From the NCBI GenBank assembly GCA_028293125.1, contig JAQGPJ010000012.1:1-64000 (forward strand): DNA of 64,000 nt, written 5' to 3'. The notes under the pieces were generated by a model. That model ran no database searches. It was not told the DNA's origin and worked only from the letters and a program-made list of their open reading frames with translations. The translations under genes and the position numbers were made by a program. Shown here piece by piece: positions 48,773 through 61,454 of this stretch; position 1 is the stretch's first letter; each line of letters begins with the position of its first letter. This DNA is from Verrucomicrobiales bacterium. GTDB taxonomy: Bacteria > Verrucomicrobiota > Verrucomicrobiia > Verrucomicrobiales > V1-33.

Positions 48773-49963
48773 ATGAACATCCACGAGTATCAAGCCAAGG
48801 AACTTTTCCAGAAGTACAACGTGCCCACTCCGGGCGGGTCCGTGGCCGGCACGCCGGAGGAGGCGCTGGCGGCGGCACAGGCGCTGGCCGGAAAGACGAT
48901 TGTCGTGAAAGCCCAGATCCATGCCGGCGGCCGCGGCAAGGGAGTGTTCAAAAACGGATTCAAGGGCGGCGTGCATCTCGCGGACTCCGCGGAGAAGGCG
49001 GCGGATCTGGCCAAATCCATGCTGGGCGAGGTCTTGGTCACTCATCAGACCGGCGAGGCCGGCAGGCTGGTAAACAAGGTCCTCATCGCCGAGGGTGTGG
49101 ATATTAAAAAAGAGTACTATCTCGCCGTCCTTGTGGACCGCGAAACCAAAGCCCCGGTCATCATCGCCAGCACCGAGGGCGGAGTGGATATCGAGCATGT
49201 GGCCGAGCACCATCCGGAGAAAATCATTCACGTGGGCGTGCATCCCCTGGCCGGTCTTCAGCCTTATCAGATCCGCACTTTGGCCTCGCAGCTCGGATTC
49301 AAGGGCGATCAGGCCAAGCAGTTCGGGGTGCTGCTCTCCAACGTTTACAAGCTTTTCCTGGGTGCCGACTGCTCGCAGGTGGAGATCAACCCCCTGGTCG
49401 AAACCCCCGAGGGCCGCATCCTGGCGCTGGACGCCAAGTTCAACTTTGACGACAACGCGCTCTACCGCCACCCCGACATCGTGGCCATGCGCGACACCAC
49501 CGAGGAGGATCCCCGCGAGGTCGCCGCCTCCGAGTTCAACCTGAACTACATCGGCCTCGACGGCAACATCGCCTGTCTGGTCAACGGCGCGGGTCTGGCC
49601 ATGGCCACCATGGACATCATCCAGCACTTCGGCGGCACCCCGGCCAACTTCCTCGACGTGGGCGGTGGCGCCTCCAAGGACCAGGTCATCGCGGCCTTCA
49701 AGATCATTCTCGGCGACGCCAACGTAAAAGGCATCCTGGTCAACATCTTCGGCGGCATCATGGACTGCGACATCATCGCCCAAGGCATCGTGGCCGCCGC
49801 CCGCGAAGTAGGCCTGAGCCTTCCGCTGGTGGTCCGTCTGGAGGGCAACAACGTCGCCGCCGGCCTCGCCACCCTCAACGCCTCCGGCCTCAAAATCACG
49901 TCCGCCACCACCATGGCGGAGGGGGCGCGGAAGATTGTGGCGGAAGTCAAGGCAGCCGCCTGA
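48773..49963 (+). CDS. sucC: Succinyl-CoA synthetase, beta subunit
   Basis: 396-residue ADP/GDP-forming succinate-CoA ligase beta subunit of the citric acid cycle. The N-terminus [20 protein letters not shown] is canonical. The ATP-grasp region includes [17 protein letters not shown]. The C-terminal domain has [30 protein letters not shown] and [16 protein letters not shown]. The alpha subunit, sucD, starts 1.18 kb downstream. The two are normally adjacent, but here three small genes lie between them, the first within an inverted-repeat cassette that begins 4 bases after the sucC stop codon. Confidence 0.96.
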
Positions 49964-49967
49964 AAAA

Positions 49968-49996
49968 GGTAAAAGGGTTCAGGGTTCAGGTTTCAG
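49968..49996 (+). repeat. Left inverted repeat of the four-helix-bundle cassette
   Basis: 29 bases: GGTAAAAGGGTTCAG followed by two heptamers, GGTTCAG and GTTTCAG. It pairs with 50364-50392 in inverted orientation with 27 of 29 positions matching; the two heptamers appear in swapped order. It starts 4 bases after the sucC stop codon. Confidence 0.9.
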
Positions 49997-50003
49997 AACT
50001 GCC

Positions 50004-50381
50004 ATGTCCGCGCAGATTTTTGAAGAAATGGATGTTTGGAAACGCGGCTGCCGTCAGGGAGTCACGGTCTGCCGGCTGATTCAGGATTGGAGGAATTTTG
50101 CCCTGCGTGACCAGATAACCCGTGCGGCAGTCTCCGTCCGCTCCAATGTGGCTGAAGGCTATGAGCGGGATTCCGATGGTGACTTCCGCCGTTTCCTCCG
50201 CATCGCCAAAGGCTCCAATGCTGAACTGCGCACCCAGCTGTATATCGCCTCCTCGCTCGGTCTGATCGATGAAACCGCCCGCAAAACCCTGATCAATGAA
50301 TCCAAGGAAATCTCCGCCATGCTCCAAGGCTTCATCCGGGCCATCGAACGCCGATCCATCCCTCTGAACCCTGAAACCTGA
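50004..50381 (+). CDS. Four-helix-bundle protein (23S rRNA intervening-sequence / S23 family)
   Basis: 125-residue protein starting at the ATG at 50004. It shows the family pattern: FEEMDVWKRGCRQGVTVCRLI, then FALRDQITRAAVSVRSNVAEGYERDSDGDFRRFLRIAKGSNAELRTQLYIA. This is the four-helix bundle first seen as the product of intervening sequences in 23S rRNA genes and related to the Avd accessory protein of diversity-generating retroelements. Its biochemical role is not settled; a nucleic-acid-binding role is suspected from its basic surface. Its last residues, PLNPET and the stop, are encoded by the right inverted repeat. Here it is not in an rRNA gene but within the suc operon, and no reverse transcriptase or variable repeat is visible. 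Confidence 0.88.
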   Translation: MSAQIFEEMDVWKRGCRQGVTVCRLIQDWRNFALRDQITRAAVSVRSNVAEGYERDSDGDFRRFLRIAKGSNAELRTQLYIASSLGLIDETARKTLINESKEISAMLQGFIRAIERRSIPLNPET

Positions 50382-50392
50382 ACCCTTTTACC
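50364..50392 (-). repeat. Right inverted repeat of the four-helix-bundle cassette
   Basis: Read on the minus strand: GGTAAAAGGGTTCAG, then GTTTCAG and GGTTCAG. It begins inside the coding sequence and ends 2 bases before the ATG of the next gene. Confidence 0.9.
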
Positions 50393-50394
50393 TC

Positions 50395-50766
50395 ATGAGA
50401 GTTTTAGAAATCGCCTTCTCCTGCTACCCCAGCAAAGACATTCCCCGGTCGCTGGCCTTTTATGAGGGGGTGCTGGGTCTGAAAAAGACCATGGACCATG
50501 CCACTGAGAACGGCCACTGGGTGGAGTTCGACATCGGAACCGGGACGCTGGGCCTGGGGAAAATGGAGGGCTGGGACGCCAGTCCCATGGGCTGCACGGT
50601 GGGCTTGGAGGTGGAGGATTTTGATCAGGCGGTGGCGGCGGTCAAAGCCGCCAATGTCCCCATCACCATGGGGCCGATGGAGACGCCGGTCTGCCACATG
50701 CTCATGATCTCCGATCCCGATGGCAGCCCGCTGATTATCCACAAAAGAAAGCCAGGCCACGCCTGA
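50395..50766 (+). CDS. VOC (glyoxalase/bleomycin-resistance) superfamily protein
   Basis: 123-residue single-domain vicinal-oxygen-chelate protein: PRSLAFYEGVLGLKKTMDH, HWVEFDIGTGTLGLG, VGLEVEDFDQAVAAVKAANV, ISDPDGSPLIIHKR. Two beta-alpha-beta-beta-beta halves are evident. The metal ligands of glyoxalase I or methylmalonyl-CoA epimerase are not all recognisable: the first position reads IAFSCYP rather than the usual His, and the last Glu is not obvious. It may therefore bind rather than convert a ligand. It lies between the four-helix-bundle cassette and sucD; a link to CoA-ester metabolism is conceivable but unproven. Confidence 0.8.
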   Translation: MRVLEIAFSCYPSKDIPRSLAFYEGVLGLKKTMDHATENGHWVEFDIGTGTLGLGKMEGWDASPMGCTVGLEVEDFDQAVAAVKAANVPITMGPMETPVCHMLMISDPDGSPLIIHKRKPGHA

Positions 50767-50779
50767 TTTGGTTCCAGCG

Positions 50780-51115
50780 ATGAAAATTTACTGGAACCAA
50801 GGGAGTATACCGGCTCTGAAAGGGCTTTCCAAAAAGCAAAGGGAAGCTGCGAAACTTGCTGTGATGCCCCAAGTTTGGAAGCATTGGCAGGTGTGGCTGC
50901 CTATAGTGGTGCAGGTGGCGGGATTTGCGGTTTTCGTGCTGGCCGCCCCCCGTTTTCCCCACCGCTTTCCCATCGTGATGCTGGGAATCCTGATCACGGT
51001 CACCTTGGCCCAACTGCCATTGAACCACTATCTGAACTATTACCTTGAACGCCGGGTCAGAGCTGCTGACAACAGGCAGCCGGAACCCGCTTCCCTGCCC
51101 GGCCAACCCATTTAA
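50780..51115 (+). CDS. Small two-helix membrane protein
   Basis: 111-residue protein that I do not recognise. The ATG at 50780 (MKIYWNQGSIPALKGLSKKQREAAKLAV) gives a basic cytoplasmic N-terminus. Two hydrophobic helices follow: VWLPIVVQVAGFAVFVLAA (about 38-56) and FPIVMLGILITVTLAQLPL (about 62-80). The tail, LNYYLERRVRAADNRQPEP, is charged. The gene starts 13 bases after the VOC gene and ends 24 bases before sucD, so it is probably in the same transcript. Confidence 0.65.
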   Translation: MKIYWNQGSIPALKGLSKKQREAAKLAVMPQVWKHWQVWLPIVVQVAGFAVFVLAAPRFPHRFPIVMLGILITVTLAQLPLNHYLNYYLERRVRAADNRQPEPASLPGQPI

Positions 51116-51139: not shown

Positions 51140-52045
51140 ATGGCAATTCTCGTCAACGAAAACACCCGCATCCTCGTTCAAGGCATCACCGGCGCATTTG
51201 GTGCGAAGCACGCTCAGCTGAGCCTTGACTACGGCACCAAACTTGTGGCTGGCGTCACTCCGGGCAAGGGCGGGCAGACCTTTGAACACCATGGCCACAA
51301 GGTGCCCATTTTTGACACCGTGGAGGAGGCCGCCCGTCAGACCGGAGCCACCGTCTCCTGCATCTTCGTGCCGCCGGCCTTTGCGGGCGACGCCATTTTG
51401 GAAGGTGTGGGCGCGGGCTTGGACCTGGCGGTGTGCATCACCGAGGGCATTCCCGTCATGGACATGATGCGCGTGCGCGCGGCCATGACCGGCAGCCACA
51501 CCCGGCTCATCGGACCGAACTGCCCGGGTCTGGTCACTCCCGGCACCGGCAAGGACTCCCACGGCGGCTGCCGCATCGGCATCTCTCCGGGCTACATTCA
51601 CAAGCGCGGCAACATCGGCGTGGTCTCCCGCTCCGGCACCCTGACCTATGAGGCGGTTTGGCAGCTCACCTCCCGAGGACTGGGCCAGAGCACCTGCGTG
51701 GGAATCGGCGGCGACCCCATCAACGGCACCACGCACCTCGACATCATCAAAATGTTTAATGAGGATCCGCAGACCGAGGGCATCATCATGATCGGTGAGA
51801 TCGGCGGCACCAACGAGGAGCAGGCCGCGGAGTGGGTGAAGCAGAACTGCCAAAAGCCCATGGCGGGCTTCATTGCCGGGGCCACCGCCCCCCCAGGCCG
51901 CCGCATGGGGCACGCCGGGGCCATCGTCTCGGGCGGCAAGGGCACCGCCGCCGCCAAGCAGGCGGCCATGGAGGATGCCGGCATCGAGATCGCCGCCACC
52001 CCCAGCGACATGGCGGACGCGCTGATCCGCGCCATGAAGCGGTAA
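51140..52045 (+). CDS. sucD: Succinyl-CoA synthetase, alpha subunit
   Basis: 301-residue alpha subunit that binds CoA and carries the phosphohistidine. The N-terminus [45 protein letters not shown] is canonical. The Rossmann/CoA region is followed by [14 protein letters not shown] and [38 protein letters not shown]. The phospho-His lies in [19 protein letters not shown], near residue 256. It functions with SucC, encoded 1.2 kb upstream. Confidence 0.96.
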
Positions 52046-53919: not shown

Positions 53920-56900
53920 TCACAACCGCTTCACCCGGTAGAAGCGGGACTTTCCGGTCCCCGGGGCGCTGGGAGTGCGCGGAGCTCCGCGATCGGTCCA
54001 CTGCATCTGGCTTCCGGCGGCGCGTATCCGCACCAGGGAATCCCTCCATTCCCCGGCCCCGCCATCCTGATACTGCACGATGTAAAGCTCTCCCGGCACC
54101 GTGGCGAACACCATCTGGAAAGCCTTGGGCCGCACCATGGCCGCACTGGCGATGCCGAGGCTGCCGGAGGTGATCTGATCTGCATATGGACGGACGGCCC
54201 CAACCCCGAGTCGGGGTTTCAACTCCGCCAAGGTGGGAGCGTAATACTCCAGCACCACGGTGACGGAAGCATTCACCGCCAAAGGCTGATAGTATCCAAT
54301 CATGGCATATCCATTCATGCTGTCTCCGGCATTGTACAGGCTGGCGGCGGAGGGCAGTTCAGAAACCGCGATTTCAAATCCCCCGATGGTTTCAAATCCC
54401 CTGTTTCTCACGGTAACCGGCTGTTCCCAAAGACCGGTCGCCGGATTTTTAGTCAGCGTGTCCGAAAACGTGAGGGACAAACCGATCAGTTCAGGAATTT
54501 TCACATTGAAGGTTTTGCGGACAACGGCTCCTGAGCCATCGCTGACCTCAATGGTGACCGTGGACTTTCCTGTGGCCCGGCTGAAATACTGAATGATCAG
54601 CCGGCCCCCGGCATCGAACTCCAGTCTGGAGAAAAGCGCGGGGGTGGAGGCGGAGACCACCCTCCAGACCAGACGGCCGGCCGTGGCCGGATCCGTGATG
54701 AGATAGGAGAAATCCACCACGGCATCCGCGGTGAGCGTGCCGGCGGTGATGTCCGGAATGGTCCCGGAAATCAGAGGAGTCTTGTCGGGATCGGGAATGT
54801 TCAAGGCGCTCAAAGGCACCGTTTTCACAGAAAGACCATGAAAATTCGTGCCGTCTGGAAAGAAGACCAGAGCATCCGTGCCCTGCACCGCCAAGCGGAG
54901 AGCGTTTATAGTTTCAAGACTGTACGGCGTTGTCTCCTGAAGATCACGGTTGAGCGGGATGAGGCTGTTGTCCCGCAGCGTCAGCGGGGCATCCGCTCTT
55001 CCTTCCGGAAACACCATATCCGTAATGCTGGGAAGCAGTGTATCCAAAGGCTTCAGGGAGGCCGTGGAGTAGACCCTGCCTGTGACAGCCGACAGGACAC
55101 GATCATTGCCAGGGAACAGAATGAGACGATCGGTACTCCATTGGGAATTGTCCTGCGGAGAATTTTCCTGAAGCAGAGTGCCATCCGGAGCGATGCTGAT
55201 ACTGGAAGGGCCGTACGGCGTATTGGTGAACAGACGCTTTCCAGCCTCATCCACCGCTATGAAGGAGTTTCCATTGGCTACCTGAAAAGTGGCCAGAACA
55301 ACTCCCGAATTTTTGTCCACGCTTGTCCACCGCGCGGCATTGTCAATCCACTGCTGATAAAGCAGCAGATTTCCCAAAATGGCCATCGGTCTTGCTGGCT
55401 GCTCAGCTGTGAGCAGGACGGTGCGTCCGCCTCCATCCGCATTCCAGCGGATCACCTTCCGGTCCTCCGAGGCATAGATCATTCCGCCATCCGGCCACAG
55501 CGCTGTCAGTTTGGCCTCCGCCGGAATCGGGGCCAGCCAGGCCCGGCCGGCGAGATCATAGCGCTCAATGCGGTCAGGCCCGCTGAAGGCGAAATAATAA
55601 ATATCCCCAACCCTCTGAGCCATATTTAGAAACTCGCCACCGTCGGCGGGCATGGTGAGTTCCAAAAGCGCCGAGGATTTGCTTCCGGTGGCATTGATGG
55701 ACCGCACGCGGAAAATGTAGGACGCCATCGGGGAAAGACCGGTGACGGTGAACTGGGTCCTGTTGAAATCCACCCGGCCCGCCTCGGTATAGGCACCGGA
55801 TCCCGTGCGCCTGTACTCAATGATAAAGCCGTCCTCGTTCAGGGAGTTGTCTTTCCATTCGATGATGAACGAGGTGCCGGTGAAGTCCACTCCCCCCACC
55901 TCCGTCGGTGCCGCCGGCACCGCGGCCGCCCCCAGGGTGGTGGCGCTGACCTGCGCGGAGAGTTCCCCGTCGGCGCTCCCGTTCACAGCCTGAATGCGGT
56001 AATAATAGGTGATGCCAGCGGCGCGTCCGGAATCCGTGAAGGTGACGGCATCGGCGGGAGCCATGAGGGTTTCAGCGGGACCGGCCGGATTGGTGGAGCG
56101 GGAAATCAGAAAACCGGTCTCATTGGAGGCATTGTCCCTCCAACTCAGCGTCACACTGTTGTGGAAAACACGGGTGACCGTCAGATTGTAAGGCTCTCCG
56201 GCCGGCTGGTCCCCGCCATCCAGCGTGGAGGCGGAGGCCACTGCGGAGGGTGGCGAGGAAAGCATGTCATCCACCGCGCGCACCCGGAATTCCAGAGCTG
56301 TGCCTGAGGGCAGCCCGGTCACCGCGCCGGAGGTGGCGCCTGCCGGGAAGGCTCCGCGCTCTGTCCACTCCTCCGCCGCTCCCGCAGTCCGGCAGTCCAC
56401 CATAAACTGGTCCTCGTTCTCCGACAGATCCGTCCATTTCAGCGAGATGGAATTTGCGCTGCGGTCTGTGACCTCCAAGCCGCCGGGGGCTGTCGGGTGC
56501 CAGGGGGAACTGAAAAGAGTTTCAAGATTTTCCCCCAGGAGGGTGAAGTGCGGCGCACCTGCCAGGAACGTGACCACCGTCAGCCCCTGGGGGGTGCTGA
56601 AAACCCTCAATGGAGTGCCGGGGAACGGTCCGGCTTCGGGGCCCGGCAGCAAACCGCCTCCGGACCATGTCCGAAGCCGGGTCTGTGAGTCCACTGCCTG
56701 GATGGTGGCCAGACTTTGCCCCCTCCAGTCCGCATCCTTCACAGGGTCCGGCAGTTTGGCGGAGAGCGACAGATCGTCCGCTTTGTAAAGTCCGGTGGGC
56801 CCGATGAATATGAAGTTCCCATCAGGGCTGATCCGGATCGGGCTGTCCCTCAGAATATGCTCCTGCTGGCTTCCATTCCCGGATGCGGTGATTCTGCCGT

Positions 56901-59900
56901 CCGCGCCCAGTGTTTCATAGCCCGGGGCCACCGGTCCGGCTCCATCCTGAAGATGATAAACCCGCCGCCGCACGGGGTCCCAGGCATGGGTCCCGCCGCC
57001 GGGCGGAAAGTTGTCCAGGTCGGTCAGGAGCGTGCCGTCGGGCAAAAAAGTCCTGCAGTGGTGATAGGAATTGACATAGGCGAACTCCCCGGCGGCCACG
57101 AGGGCGGTCACCTCCTCCGGAACCGTGACCAGAGGGGCCTCCAGCGGAGTGGCTGATGGCAGCTTCATCCGGCGGATATCACTGGTGCCGTATTTGGTGA
57201 GCAGGGTGGAGCTCCCGGAGGAGTATGAGACAAGCCCCGGTCCTCCGGCCAGAGGAACCGGCGCCTGATAGGCGCGCAGCGCCGGGGACCACGGAAGCAG
57301 CGACTGCCTGGCCCGGCTGTAAACCTGGATCACCCCGCCGCTGTCCACAAACAGATCATCCGCGTTGTATGCCAGGCCGTTGGGATCCAGCGGCTGATCC
57401 GGCTGCGGGGCGTTCAGCCGGCTGAGGGGAACGGTGCGGAGCGCCATCCCATGGGCATCCGTGCCATCCGCGAGAAACACCAGGGCATCCGTTCCCTGCA
57501 CCGCAAGGACTTTGCCCTCGTAGGAATCAATGGTGGCGGTGCCGGCCACGGCAAGGGTGCTGCTGTAGGCGCGCAGCTCGTTCCACTTGAGGGTCACCGG
57601 CACATCCCCGCCATAAAAGGCCATATCATGGAAATCAGCGCTAAAGTTGTCGATCAGAGCCAGGTCCTCCTTGGAGAAAACGCCTCCTCCGGGCATTGCC
57701 AGCCTGCCCGTGGACGGAAACACGTACACGATTCCGGAACCGATCTGATTGCTTCCCTTGCGCAGCAGTGTCCCGGCCGGCGAGATATCCATAAAGGTCA
57801 GGGCATACATTCCGCCCAGAAAGATCCGTCCGGTGACGGGATCCGCGCTGGCCCGGTTGATGGCTCCTGAAAAAGGAATGGTGGCCAAAAAGGCACCGCT
57901 GCTCCGGTTGAGGGTGATGATGCGGCTGTCCGGGTTGTCCTGCCGCACATAACCCAGCACACCGCCGGTGGTGAAGAGAACGGTCACCGGTGTCTCCGCG
58001 GCCCGGAGAACCGTCCGCCCGCCCCCGTCCAGTCCCCAGCGGACAATGGCGGGCCCCTCGGCGGCGAAGATCCCGCTGTCATCCGCCCACAGTGCTGTAA
58101 TTTCCGCCTGTGCCGGGATGGCGGCCAGCCAAGCCCGGCCCGATAGATCATAGCGCTCGATCCGGGTCGGTCCTTTGAAAAGGAAATACTGAATATTTCC
58201 GCTCCGCATGGACAATCCCGCATAATCCCCACCCTCCTTCGGCGTGGTGAACTGGGTGGAGATGGCGGCGGATGCGCCTCTGGAGTTGAAGGCCTTGACC
58301 CTCACGTTGTAACCGGTGTTCGGAGTGAGGCCGGTGAGGCGCACGCCCGTGGCGCTGAAGGATGTCCTTGCCCGCTCTGTCCAGATGGGATTGTCTGCGG
58401 AGGATAGGGAGGTCTCAATGAGGAACCCGTCCTCGTTCAGGGAATTGTCGCGCCAGGCCAAAGTGACTTCAGTGAAGGCAAGACCGGACCAGGCCAGCAG
58501 GGAGGGCGCGGCCGGAAGCGCCTCCATCGCCAGAGTGCGGGCATTGACCGGATCGGACAAATCCCCTGCCAGGGCTCCGTTCACGACCTGAATCCGGTAA
58601 TAATAAACGGTGCCGGCGCTCAGACCGGTGTCCGTGAAATCCGTGACGCCCGCCGGCACGTTCATGATGACGGCATCCCCGGCCGGGGCGGAGGAGCGGA
58701 GGATGCGGAAACCGGTTTCATTCGCCGCGTTGTCCCGCCAGGAGAGGGAGATGCTGGTCCGGTAAATGCGGCTCACCGCCAGACCGTAAGGCTCGCCGAC
58801 CGGCTCATCAGGCGACCCGAGCGTCCCCGATTTCAGAATGCCGGAGGCTGATTCCAGCGTTCCGTTGAAAGCCACCACCCGGAAATCAAACGCTTTGCCC
58901 GGCGGCAGCCCGGTCACGGTGCCCGTGATGGCGTTTTTATCAGCAGCCGCGCCGGTGACCCAAGCTCCATCCGACCCCGCGGCACGGTATTCGATGCGTT
59001 GGCCGTCCTCATTGTCCGAGCGGTCCTCCCAGCTCAGGGACACCGAGCCGGTGGTGCGGGCCACGGCGACAAGGACCCCTGGCGGCGTGGGATTCGCCGG
59101 TGAAATATAAACCGGATTCAGCGACGCATCATAAACCGCAAACCGCGGGATTCCGTTCACCAGGGTGACCGCAGCCAGATTGCCGGCTCCGGCGGGAAAA
59201 AGCCGGAATGGAGTGCCGTCCATTTTCAACTCCCTCCCATCCGGCTGGACGAGGCCGGCGGGCCAGGACTGCACCTGTGAGCGGCCGTCCAGAGCACGCA
59301 GTGTAAAGGCTTTCTGCCCCTGCCACAGGACATCCTTGACGGCGGAGGGGAGACTGCCCCTGAACCTCGTGTCCGCTGTGAACACCACGCCGCCCCCTGT
59401 AACCACCAAGTCACCATCAGGACTGACGCGGATGGGAGGAGAAAATTCAAAAGGTCCCTCCTCCCAGGACATCTCCTCGGAAAGAGTGACCCTCCCGTCC
59501 GCTCCGATCACATCGAACATCAGATTGTTGCGGTCCAGCCCCTCATTGTCCATGTAATGATACATGCGCCGCCGCACCGGGTCCCATGTGTTCCAGCGAC
59601 CCGTTACAGTGAACATGTTGAGATCGCCGATCATGGCTCCGGTGGCTGAAAAAATGGAGCCGGATTGGCTCCCCGCCGCAAAAAGCAGATCGCCCGTCGC
59701 CGCCAGGCCTATCGCCCGCTCCGGAAGACGGTTCAGAACCGTTTCACCCGTCATCGGATCGGAGGCGTTGATTTTCCGCAGCACCAAGTTGGGATAGGCG
59801 GTGTAAATGGCATTCCCCGCCGCCGAAAACGCCACGGCGTCGGGGGTCCCCACCAATGAAATGGGAGCCAGCCAGGAACGGGTGGACGGGGACCAGCGGA

Positions 59901-60945
59901 ACAGACTTTTATTCAGCCGGCTCAGGAGGACCAGATTGCCTGATGCATCCGCAAACGCATCATCGGGTGTGAACACCAGGCCCTGCGGATCCACCGCCGA
60001 TCCGGGTTCCGGAGCTTTGATATCGCTTAACGGCACCATCCTGACTCCCGGCTTCGGAGAGGCCGGAGTGAAAATGAAAGCCTGGGCGGCATTCACCGCC
60101 AGGGCTGTCCCGCCTGCCGGAACGGTGGCACGGCCGGTTTCAATCAGTTCCGGAGTATAGTCCACCAGATTTGTGCCGCTGAAGACTACAGGTCGGCCCC
60201 CATTCCAGCCGATCGCCGTCACGGGGACAGACAGATACCCTTTGAAGGAGAGATCCGCGGTGCTGTAAACGGCTCCGGTGGTGCCGGCAAACCGGCTTTC
60301 ATCCGGAAAGACAAAGACCTGTTTGGGATTTCCGAAGACACCATTGGTGTCACGGGAGTCCATGACCGCTCCCGGAATGCCGTCTTCGGAGTAACCAGCC
60401 ATCAGAACATTGCCTAAACCGCTTGTAAGCCGGCCAAAGATTTTATTTAGGCCCGGAGCCAGGGAGGCTCCATTGAAGGAGGCATTCCTGTATGCCCGGC
60501 TGCCGGTCTGGGCCCCTGTGGTGCGGTTGAAAATGGTGACCCGCCCCTCGGTGGTGGCCGAATGCACCGCCAGCAGCAGCTGTCCGTCAAGAAAAAGGGA
60601 ACTTATGCTGCTTGAGGCCGTGGAGCCGGTGGCTGTCCCTCCTGTGAAATCAGGGGCGTAGCGGTAAATCGTGGTGCCGTAGGCCACAAAAGCACCGGTG
60701 CCGTCCCCGGTGAAGGATGTGGCCCCCGTTCTGGACAGGGTGACGGTGTCCATCCAGCTCTGAGTGCCCAGATCATAACGCTCGATACGGCCACTGTACA
60801 GGAAGCGCATTTCGTTTCCAGTGCGCTGGGTCTGCACCCATTGGGTCTGCGCATGGGCCAGCATGGGGAGCGCCAGCCCGGACAGCATCCCGAACAGCAG
60901 AGTGGCCAAGCGGTGCCGGCTGCCGGCAAAATGCAGAGAGTTCAT
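53920..60945 (-). CDS. Giant secreted beta-propeller / fibronectin type III protein
   Basis: 2341-residue exported protein. The ATG at 60945 begins a signal peptide (MNSLHFAGSRHRLATLLFGMLSGLALPMLAHAQ, cleavage near AHAQ, within about 33 residues). The body is a duplicated unit: a ~600-residue propeller-like region opening with an RIERYDL...W motif (copies near residues 45, 930 and 1795), followed by three fibronectin-III domains (about 620-905 and 1485-1770; motif SLSWRDNAxNETGFxI). The third propeller copy is truncated, followed by a cadherin/Ig-like region (about 2050-2140) and a C-terminal module ending SRFYRVKRL. It is likely a cell-surface or secreted adhesive protein; no enzyme motif is visible. 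It is convergent with the rhodanese-YceI gene. Confidence 0.85.
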   Translation of the reverse strand: MNSLHFAGSRHRLATLLFGMLSGLALPMLAHAQTQWVQTQRTGNEMRFLYSGRIERYDLGTQSWMDTVTLSRTGATSFTGDGTGAFVAYGTTIYRYAPDFTGGTATGSTASSSISSLFLDGQLLLAVHSATTEGRVTIFNRTTGAQTGSRAYRNASFNGASLAPGLNKIFGRLTSGLGNVLMAGYSEDGIPGAVMDSRDTNGVFGNPKQVFVFPDESRFAGTTGAVYSTADLSFKGYLSVPVTAIGWNGGRPVVFSGTNLVDYTPELIETGRATVPAGGTALAVNAAQAFIFTPASPKPGVRMVPLSDIKAPEPGSAVDPQGLVFTPDDAFADASGNLVLLSRLNKSLFRWSPSTRSWLAPISLVGTPDAVAFSAAGNAIYTAYPNLVLRKINASDPMTGETVLNRLPERAIGLAATGDLLFAAGSQSGSIFSATGAMIGDLNMFTVTGRWNTWDPVRRRMYHYMDNEGLDRNNLMFDVIGADGRVTLSEEMSWEEGPFEFSPPIRVSPDGDLVVTGGGVVFTADTRFRGSLPSAVKDVLWQGQKAFTLRALDGRSQVQSWPAGLVQPDGRELKMDGTPFRLFPAGAGNLAAVTLVNGIPRFAVYDASLNPVYISPANPTPPGVLVAVARTTGSVSLSWEDRSDNEDGQRIEYRAAGSDGAWVTGAAADKNAITGTVTGLPPGKAFDFRVVAFNGTLESASGILKSGTLGSPDEPVGEPYGLAVSRIYRTSISLSWRDNAANETGFRILRSSAPAGDAVIMNVPAGVTDFTDTGLSAGTVYYYRIQVVNGALAGDLSDPVNARTLAMEALPAAPSLLAWSGLAFTEVTLAWRDNSLNEDGFLIETSLSSADNPIWTERARTSFSATGVRLTGLTPNTGYNVRVKAFNSRGASAAISTQFTTPKEGGDYAGLSMRSGNIQYFLFKGPTRIERYDLSGRAWLAAIPAQAEITALWADDSGIFAAEGPAIVRWGLDGGGRTVLRAAETPVTVLFTTGGVLGYVRQDNPDSRIITLNRSSGAFLATIPFSGAINRASADPVTGRIFLGGMYALTFMDISPAGTLLRKGSNQIGSGIVYVFPSTGRLAMPGGGVFSKEDLALIDNFSADFHDMAFYGGDVPVTLKWNELRAYSSTLAVAGTATIDSYEGKVLAVQGTDALVFLADGTDAHGMALRTVPLSRLNAPQPDQPLDPNGLAYNADDLFVDSGGVIQVYSRARQSLLPWSPALRAYQAPVPLAGGPGLVSYSSGSSTLLTKYGTSDIRRMKLPSATPLEAPLVTVPEEVTALVAAGEFAYVNSYHHCRTFLPDGTLLTDLDNFPPGGGTHAWDPVRRRVYHLQDGAGPVAPGYETLGADGRITASGNGSQQEHILRDSPIRISPDGNFIFIGPTGLYKADDLSLSAKLPDPVKDADWRGQSLATIQAVDSQTRLRTWSGGGLLPGPEAGPFPGTPLRVFSTPQGLTVVTFLAGAPHFTLLGENLETLFSSPWHPTAPGGLEVTDRSANSISLKWTDLSENEDQFMVDCRTAGAAEEWTERGAFPAGATSGAVTGLPSGTALEFRVRAVDDMLSSPPSAVASASTLDGGDQPAGEPYNLTVTRVFHNSVTLSWRDNASNETGFLISRSTNPAGPAETLMAPADAVTFTDSGRAAGITYYYRIQAVNGSADGELSAQVSATTLGAAAVPAAPTEVGGVDFTGTSFIIEWKDNSLNEDGFIIEYRRTGSGAYTEAGRVDFNRTQFTVTGLSPMASYIFRVRSINATGSKSSALLELTMPADGGEFLNMAQRVGDIYYFAFSGPDRIERYDLAGRAWLAPIPAEAKLTALWPDGGMIYASEDRKVIRWNADGGGRTVLLTAEQPARPMAILGNLLLYQQWIDNAARWTSVDKNSGVVLATFQVANGNSFIAVDEAGKRLFTNTPYGPSSISIAPDGTLLQENSPQDNSQWSTDRLILFPGNDRVLSAVTGRVYSTASLKPLDTLLPSITDMVFPEGRADAPLTLRDNSLIPLNRDLQETTPYSLETINALRLAVQGTDALVFFPDGTNFHGLSVKTVPLSALNIPDPDKTPLISGTIPDITAGTLTADAVVDFSYLITDPATAGRLVWRVVSASTPALFSRLEFDAGGRLIIQYFSRATGKSTVTIEVSDGSGAVVRKTFNVKIPELIGLSLTFSDTLTKNPATGLWEQPVTVRNRGFETIGGFEIAVSELPSAASLYNAGDSMNGYAMIGYYQPLAVNASVTVVLEYYAPTLAELKPRLGVGAVRPYADQITSGSLGIASAAMVRPKAFQMVFATVPGELYIVQYQDGGAGEWRDSLVRIRAAGSQMQWTDRGAPRTPSAPGTGKSRFYRVKRL

Positions 60946-61454
60946 AGAAAAGAGGATGAGGGGAAATTGCTGAAGAGCATGGGGGAATCTGAAAACCGGC
61001 AAAGTGTCACGAGGGCATGGAACGGGAGGCAGGAGGTTCCCGATCCGCCCTAGCTTGGCTTTTTCAGCCGGAGAGGCTCAATCGGGGATCCGGACTGCGC
61101 GTCCCGGGCACCGGAATGCGCCGTCATCCGCAAAACCGGTTAACTGCTCAAAAACTGTCAGATAATAAAAATCCGGCATCATGACACCTATTCGAAAAGC
61201 GGCGACAATATGATTCATCCGTCAAAAACGGGCAAGCCCTCTCCTTATGCTGAAACCCTTGGCCTTGATGCGGCAACAGCAAATATGAAATCATTCTTTT
61301 CCAACGCGGAAAGAGCGTGTCCATGCGAAAACCGCCCATGGGGAGAATGGTTGATTGTAGAGGGGAATCGGTCACAAGGAAGTACTGGACGGACGGCGGG
61401 GACGTGATTGGTTACCGGCCCTATCCGGGTTTTTTATCCCCCTTCCGCACCGCC
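60946..61454. other. Intergenic region between divergent genes
   Basis: About 510 bases upstream of both the giant surface-protein gene and the cupin gene. AT-rich around 61150-61310. No gene or clear promoter could be assigned. Confidence 0.4.

Follow-up and report, generated by a model that had tools for sequence, protein, structure and literature searches.

S23 Proteins, Intervening Sequences, and Heptamer Repeats

Many phyla possess genes to which the annotation ‘four helix bundle protein’ or ‘S23 ribosomal protein’ is given but no role has been assigned. Proteins of the S23 family are known as pentamers, and a relative of theirs, Avd, binds retroelement RNA. Heptamer repeats scattered through bacterial genomes also have been known for decades.

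The closest described system is the 23S rRNA intervening sequence (IVS). That of Coxiella carries an S23 open reading frame (ORF), possesses a 28-bp terminal stem, and is excised by RNase III, and directly before the ORF are found tandem GACAGAT heptamers, the number of which varies among strains (PMC4990558). Heptamer arrays are seen as well without any such gene, i.e., as the direct TAACTGA repeats which in Beggiatoaceae are located a short distance ahead of start codons (PMC4679880), and as the G-rich heptamers, also direct repeats, of Xanthomonas and Nostoc (PMC4692102). In the full-text literature searched, no paper was found linking non-rRNA S23 genes to heptamer arms.

The Cassette Downstream of sucC

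The DNA considered here, ‘the window’, is the whole 64-kb stretch that was analysed, which lies on contig C19 of a 6.48-Mb genome (G000) estimated to be 99% complete. The cassette and its surroundings consist of the following:

48773-49963, plus strand: sucC, the upstream neighbour, from the ORF list and with homologues in relatives; the last base of its stop is 49963, with 3 nt left to the element
49967-50393, plus strand: the whole element, a single gene between inverted heptamer arms, which fills the stop-to-start gap; 427 bp
49967-49997, plus strand: left arm, AGGTAAAA-GGGTTCA-GGGTTCA-GGTTTCA-GA, its inward-pointing strand being C-poor
50004-50381, plus strand: S23/IVP four-helix-bundle gene, 125 aa; PF05635, E 3e-30
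50363-50393, minus strand: right arm, the inverted copy, ending 1 nt 5' of the next ATG
50395-50766, plus strand: glyoxalase-fold gene, the downstream neighbour; PF00903, E 1e-10
50780-51115, plus strand: small ORF of 111 aa, matching no family, that separates the glyoxalase gene from sucD
51140-52045, plus strand: sucD, from the ORF list; it adjoins sucC directly in relatives G001 and G003

Both arms are made up of GGTTCAG/GTTTCAG units, are 31 nt each, are 94% complementary, and are separated by 365 nt. An initial annotation of this DNA had described an inverted-repeat cassette at 49968-50392, which agrees to within a base with the bounds just given. It had also described a close fit between sucC and the next gene along with a right repeat that encodes the end of the protein, and both are as stated: The gap from the sucC stop to the ATG at 50395 is filled, and the right arm overlaps the last codons of the S23 gene (PLNPET) together with its stop at 50379-50381. 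As to the next gene in the sucCD operon, sucC is followed by the glyoxalase-fold gene, then the 111-aa ORF, and only afterwards by sucD. No second 7-periodic inverted repeat was found upon scanning the 64-kb window, nor any in shuffled copies of it, and Rfam detected just a tRNA in the window. The cassette is not situated within a 23S rRNA gene. PF05635 is single-copy in this genome.

Elsewhere in the window, at 53920-61002 on the minus strand, there is an ORF of 2360 codons with internal repeats.

The initial assignment of the protein to the 23S-IVS/S23 four-helix-bundle family is confirmed by matches to PF05635, TIGR02436, and NF008912 (the last above its cut-off), as well as by its predicted fold. 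An AlphaFold2 model (pLDDT 95) was matched by Foldseek to the S23 protein 2GSC, with TM of 0.83-0.92, and to 2RLD. It was matched also to Avd, the accessory protein of diversity-generating retroelements, both on its own (4DWL, TM 0.75/0.86) and within the retroelement ribonucleoprotein (8UB7). Certain positions of the S23 protein are kept invariant across divergent copies. Neither a nuclease, an integrase, a reverse transcriptase, nor a transposase is encoded within the element.

How the Cassette Compares

Like the 23S rRNA IVSs of Coxiella and Leptospira, the cassette is of about 430 bp, encodes a protein of the same family, and bears terminal inverted repeats that would give a long stem. As in the Coxiella IVS, heptamers, here GGTTCAG units, are positioned directly upstream of the ORF (PMC4990558). 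The relation to rRNA IVS elements that had been proposed initially is thereby upheld, the Coxiella GACAGAT heptamers and terminal stem matching the plan of the cassette (PMC4990558). The cassette resembles rRNA IVSs in protein, stem, and heptamers, that is, but not in location, as it is situated in an operon, with a protein gene on either side, instead of in rRNA; nor were any PF05635 copies embedded in rRNA, by Rfam, among 20 loci. Unlike the rRNA IVSs, too, its class has a different heptamer in every element and has gene-less relatives within the cassette’s own genome.

Other comparisons hold in part. The cassette protein shares, by its predicted model, the fold of Avd, but unlike with a diversity-generating retroelement there is no reverse transcriptase (PF00078, i.e., RVT_1) match in its own genome. 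Indeed, RVT_1 is lacking from 22 PF05635-bearing genomes (this genome plus 21 others), for which reason a reverse transcriptase was rejected as a requirement. Across genomes, PF05635 and RVT_1 counts show a weak correlation (rho 0.30, p 0.02), and a comparison of genomes with versus without RVT_1 was non-significant (p 0.10). MITEs, REPINs, and IS elements are likewise short, with inverted ends and gene-less relatives, but the cassette is without transposase, and its ends are characterized by period and orientation rather than by shared sequence. The Beggiatoaceae TAACTGA arrays consist, as do the right arms of cassettes, of tandem 7-nt units near start codons (PMC4679880). Cassettes, however, differ from such intergenic repeats in possessing inverted pairs around an S23 gene, with solo arms seen where the gene is absent.

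Conserved Architecture, Private Sequence

PF05635 is present in 48 of 57 genomes (the present one plus relatives of the same order), at up to 16 copies per genome. Among 109 of these loci with enough flank, 86% possess inverted arms directly outside the gene, where arms are defined as a best inverted repeat of upstream versus downstream flank scoring at least 14. With swapped flanks, i.e., a control in which flanks of different loci are paired and which shares genome composition only in part, the figure is 4.5%. The arms are tandem arrays, with self-identity peaking at lags 7 (0.61) and 14 (0.59) versus 0.23-0.35 at other lags. A scan of GTDB contigs supplied 76 further usable loci, from Bacteroidota, Clostridia, several proteobacterial classes, Acidobacteria, Planctomycetes, Chloroflexi, Zixibacteria, and others, and there arms are seen in 88% versus 5% in the control, again with a period of 7. 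When unit length was estimated for 142 non-redundant arm pairs, 7 nt was best in 111, 8 nt in 18, and 11 nt in 4, such estimates being noisy where arms are short. Phages were searched for the element as well, with no match.

What is conserved is the architecture alone. The heptamer unit is private to each element, differing from locus to locus, and arms of elements within one genome are no more alike (0.544) than those of unrelated loci (0.549). Recurrence of the 29-bp repeat at other PF05635 genes, which the initial annotation had suggested looking for, thus is not seen, and a single TIR sequence shared by all PF05635 genes is rejected for the same reason. Ends are common to members within one unit family (GGTTCAG), and between elements found at different sites arm similarity goes up with protein identity. 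Left arms are G-rich and just 13% C, which places the C-poor strand inward on both sides of the inverted repeat. A conserved period combined with a freely varying sequence is a puzzle that goes beyond existing transposon models. Also unlike what is seen with ordinary transposons, no recent within-genome copies were observed, the best within-genome pair among the loci compared being 76% identical at the amino acid level.

Beyond PF05635 loci, the background of 7-periodic inverted repeats was sampled over stretches totalling 1.6 Mb in four genomes, which yielded about six: three in G000 (all GGTTCAG), two in G051, and one in G017, the latter inside that genome’s PF05635 cluster. None was found in the sampled stretches of a genome lacking PF05635. 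The G017 cluster (G017:C1:2570925-2582352) consists of four PF05635 genes within 12 kb.

As the best explanation of the whole, the sucC cassette probably belongs to a widespread class of mobile elements, minimal in make-up and of the 23S rRNA IVS kind.

Position Within Operons and the Question of RNA

Among 88 elements with enough flank, both neighbours are on the same strand as the element’s gene in 78. By simple ORF calls, with an opposite-strand background of 38-39 of 88, the element begins a median of 2 nt past the preceding stop codon, and the following start codon comes a median of 6 nt beyond its other end. Occupied sites, with names read from flanking sequence, include sucC|glyoxalase, ilvB|ilvN, metK|ahcY (where PF05635 cassettes are found in three families), and a type IV pilus gene pair. 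On cyanobacterial plasmids, they include cas6|cas4 and cmr2|cmr3. The cassette, that is, would insert in sense orientation into the short stop-to-start gap of an operon, with its neighbours left intact, and the S23 gene, seemingly without a promoter of its own, presumably is expressed through read-through of the host operon.

Sense orientation inside operons is what might be expected were these RNA-level elements, with selection maintaining the stem, RNase III cutting it, and mobility being through RNA. In the predicted fold of the operon RNA the arms indeed are paired (z -3.2), and the predicted fold of the protein resembles that of RNA-binding Avd. RNase III excision, furthermore, has been shown for the Coxiella IVS (PMC4990558). 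The arms themselves tell otherwise: Of 832 arm mismatches, 166 are G-U and 203 are A-C, i.e., A-C is favoured no less than G-U, and the two arms mirror each other but weakly in how variant units are ordered (mean z 0.6), such that selection on an RNA stem is not evident. Together with the missing PF00078 matches described above, in this genome and 21 other PF05635 carriers, though with the weak correlation in counts, this makes an RNA-level element unlikely in our estimation. The RNA hairpin put forward in the initial annotation thus is foldable, but its arms do not look as though selected to pair as RNA. Exact mirror copying of the arms is rejected as well, given the weak mirroring of unit order.

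Returning to a mobile element of the IVS kind, how might it function? Its arms would pair into a long stem within the operon mRNA, and that stem could be cut by a double-strand RNase of the host (RNase III, as with the Coxiella IVS), thereby freeing the flanking cistrons. The S23 protein would bind the nucleic acid of its own element, as Avd does retroelement RNA, and strand transfer, with no enzyme for it encoded in the element, would be by a host enzyme. The two arms look alike through the sharing of one unit per element, which points to unit turnover by slippage or by repeated copying at insertion, and the arms would not be kept alike base pair by base pair through selection on RNA. Whereas architecture, position, movement as a unit, exact replacement, and gene-less relatives emerge from comparison, these steps of RNA cleavage, protein binding, and host strand transfer we infer.

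Occupied and Empty Sites

Comparison of sucC-sucD spacing among close relatives, as had been suggested, reveals versions without the element. Within the same genus, sucC is followed directly by sucD in both G001 and G003, while the gap in G004 contains two other small ORFs but no PF05635 element. In G015, from another family, sucC is followed after 13 nt by the glyoxalase gene, with the element absent. The two G004 ORFs (L178) look toxin-antitoxin-like by eye, and the region between sucC and sucD may be a hot spot for insertions.

Plasmids supply further pairs. In one Nostoc operon, pNsp_c is occupied by a cassette at gap 2 and is empty at gap 1, whereas pNsp_a and a C052 plasmid have a different cassette in gap 1, with gap 2 of C052 empty. 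The empty gap 2 junction reads GAGGTA-ATG-GGATTTG, and the occupied one reads GAGGTAATG, then the element, then ATGGGATTTG. Picosynechococcus PCC 7003 versus 7002 give an occupied/empty pair at cmr2|cmr3, and Calothrix versus Nostoc and Aulosira do so at an integrase|hypothetical gap. In several such cases the left end of the element re-supplies the upstream stop codon. Flank identity across the occupied/empty plasmid sites is roughly 86-95%. As for target-site repeats, ATG flanks the Nostoc gap 2 element, and elsewhere these are imperfect or absent.

No arms are present at the empty Nostoc gap 1 and gap 2, cmr2|cmr3, or integrase|hypothetical sites. The pNsp_a element, moreover, recurs in Aulosira, Trichormus, and Scytonema at different sites, over 410-419 bp and at 78-81% identity, with homology ending at the arms. 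The arms therefore appear to travel with the gene rather than to have pre-existed at these sites, which supports movement of arms and gene together as a unit. The minimal mobile unit, sparing of neighbouring genes, that the initial annotation had envisaged receives support in turn from these occupied/empty pairs and from the same-genus sites lacking the element. If so, then a family best known from the interior of 23S rRNA becomes a general kind of mobile element to which the rRNA IVS would be tied, and the cassette setting of nearly all sampled copies, along with movement, would give the S23 family a testable role.

Gene-Less Hairpins

Within G000, copies of the cassette’s own arm sequence form 22 inward pairs with spacings under 500 nt, one of which is the element, and there are just 2 other adjacent pairs. 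Of 20 gene-less pairs examined, arms were recovered for 19, and none of these 19 contains a PF05635 remnant. Several are concentric, with GGTTCAG outside and arrays of GGTTATT and GGACTGAG nested inside (L376-L395), as if elements had inserted into each other’s loops. Gene-less hairpins are found also on Nostoc plasmids, as seen upon comparing loci L366:120-385, L372:100-310, L371, and L363. Here the unit, AGTCAGA, is that of the neighbouring gene-bearing cassette, and in the same gap of paralogous plasmids the hairpin is missing, single, or joined by another that is nested in its loop. At G030 sites without the S23 gene, one heptamer array is kept, i.e., arms can stand without the gene.

Repeats occurring genome-wide without such genes had been named initially as evidence against a mobile cassette, and literally these are what is found: 22 inward pairs, with the 19 gene-less ones recovered being without remnant. 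Given the presence and absence of such hairpins in Nostoc plasmids, however, they look like non-autonomous relatives of the cassette rather than a refutation of it. Alternatively, the gene might be a passenger that enters the loops of pre-made, generic heptamer hairpins, with arms belonging to the target site. This would account for a genome in which the gene is found in one alone of 22 GGTTCAG pairs, for the arm kept at gene-free G030 sites, and for the nested gene-less hairpins of a Nostoc plasmid. Against it, 7-periodic hairpins are rare in random sequence (6 in 1.6 Mb), the empty Nostoc, Picosynechococcus, and Calothrix-comparison sites are armless, arms accompany the gene to unrelated sites, and arm similarity rises with protein identity across sites. 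Insertion into an existing hairpin loop is rejected outright at the three plasmid site families, their empty versions being armless, and the passenger explanation overall we regard as improbable.

For a mobile cassette whose arms are its own, it is tentatively possible that the ends are set by architecture, that is, by inward, C-poor units of about 7 nt, instead of by sequence. Each insertion then would carry or build a private repeat, e.g., by adding a short unit repeatedly to each of the broken ends. The four-helix protein would serve as specificity factor, and scattered heptamer repeats would be scars plus non-autonomous copies. The class thus offers a possible source for unexplained heptamer repeats between bacterial genes.

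One GGTTCAG arm pair (L376; G000:C4:36900-37570) surrounds a TPP riboswitch (RF00059, 60 bits).

Exact Replacement of Alleles

One site in Akkermansia-like genomes is occupied by two cassette alleles with different arms. Between G028 and G055 the flanks of this site are 97.8/94.8% identical while the gene is just 58% identical by nucleotide, and the G055 allele is shared with G046, although the flanks of G046 are more distant. Fast vertical divergence is excluded there, since allele identity conflicts with flank identity. G030 and G051 similarly possess divergent elements (gene 62-73% identical by nucleotide) at four of five shared sites, with flanks 92-97% identical, and the fifth element is at 91%. 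In Akkermansia-like genomes, whole cassettes are shown by comparison to replace each other exactly.

That the cassette is instead a host regulatory module, i.e., an operon-internal hairpin plus binding protein that is not mobile, fits with protein positions being invariant across divergent copies and with metK-ahcY being occupied in three families, but is improbable given presence/absence between close relatives and between paralogous plasmids, exact replacement by divergent alleles, and the hitting of unrelated operons (including cas6|cas4 and cmr2|cmr3) with no single conserved site.

Lastly, one and the same intergenic site in different genera (L026, L085, and L098 versus L132 and L135) is occupied by PF05635 elements whose proteins have no BLAST-detectable similarity.
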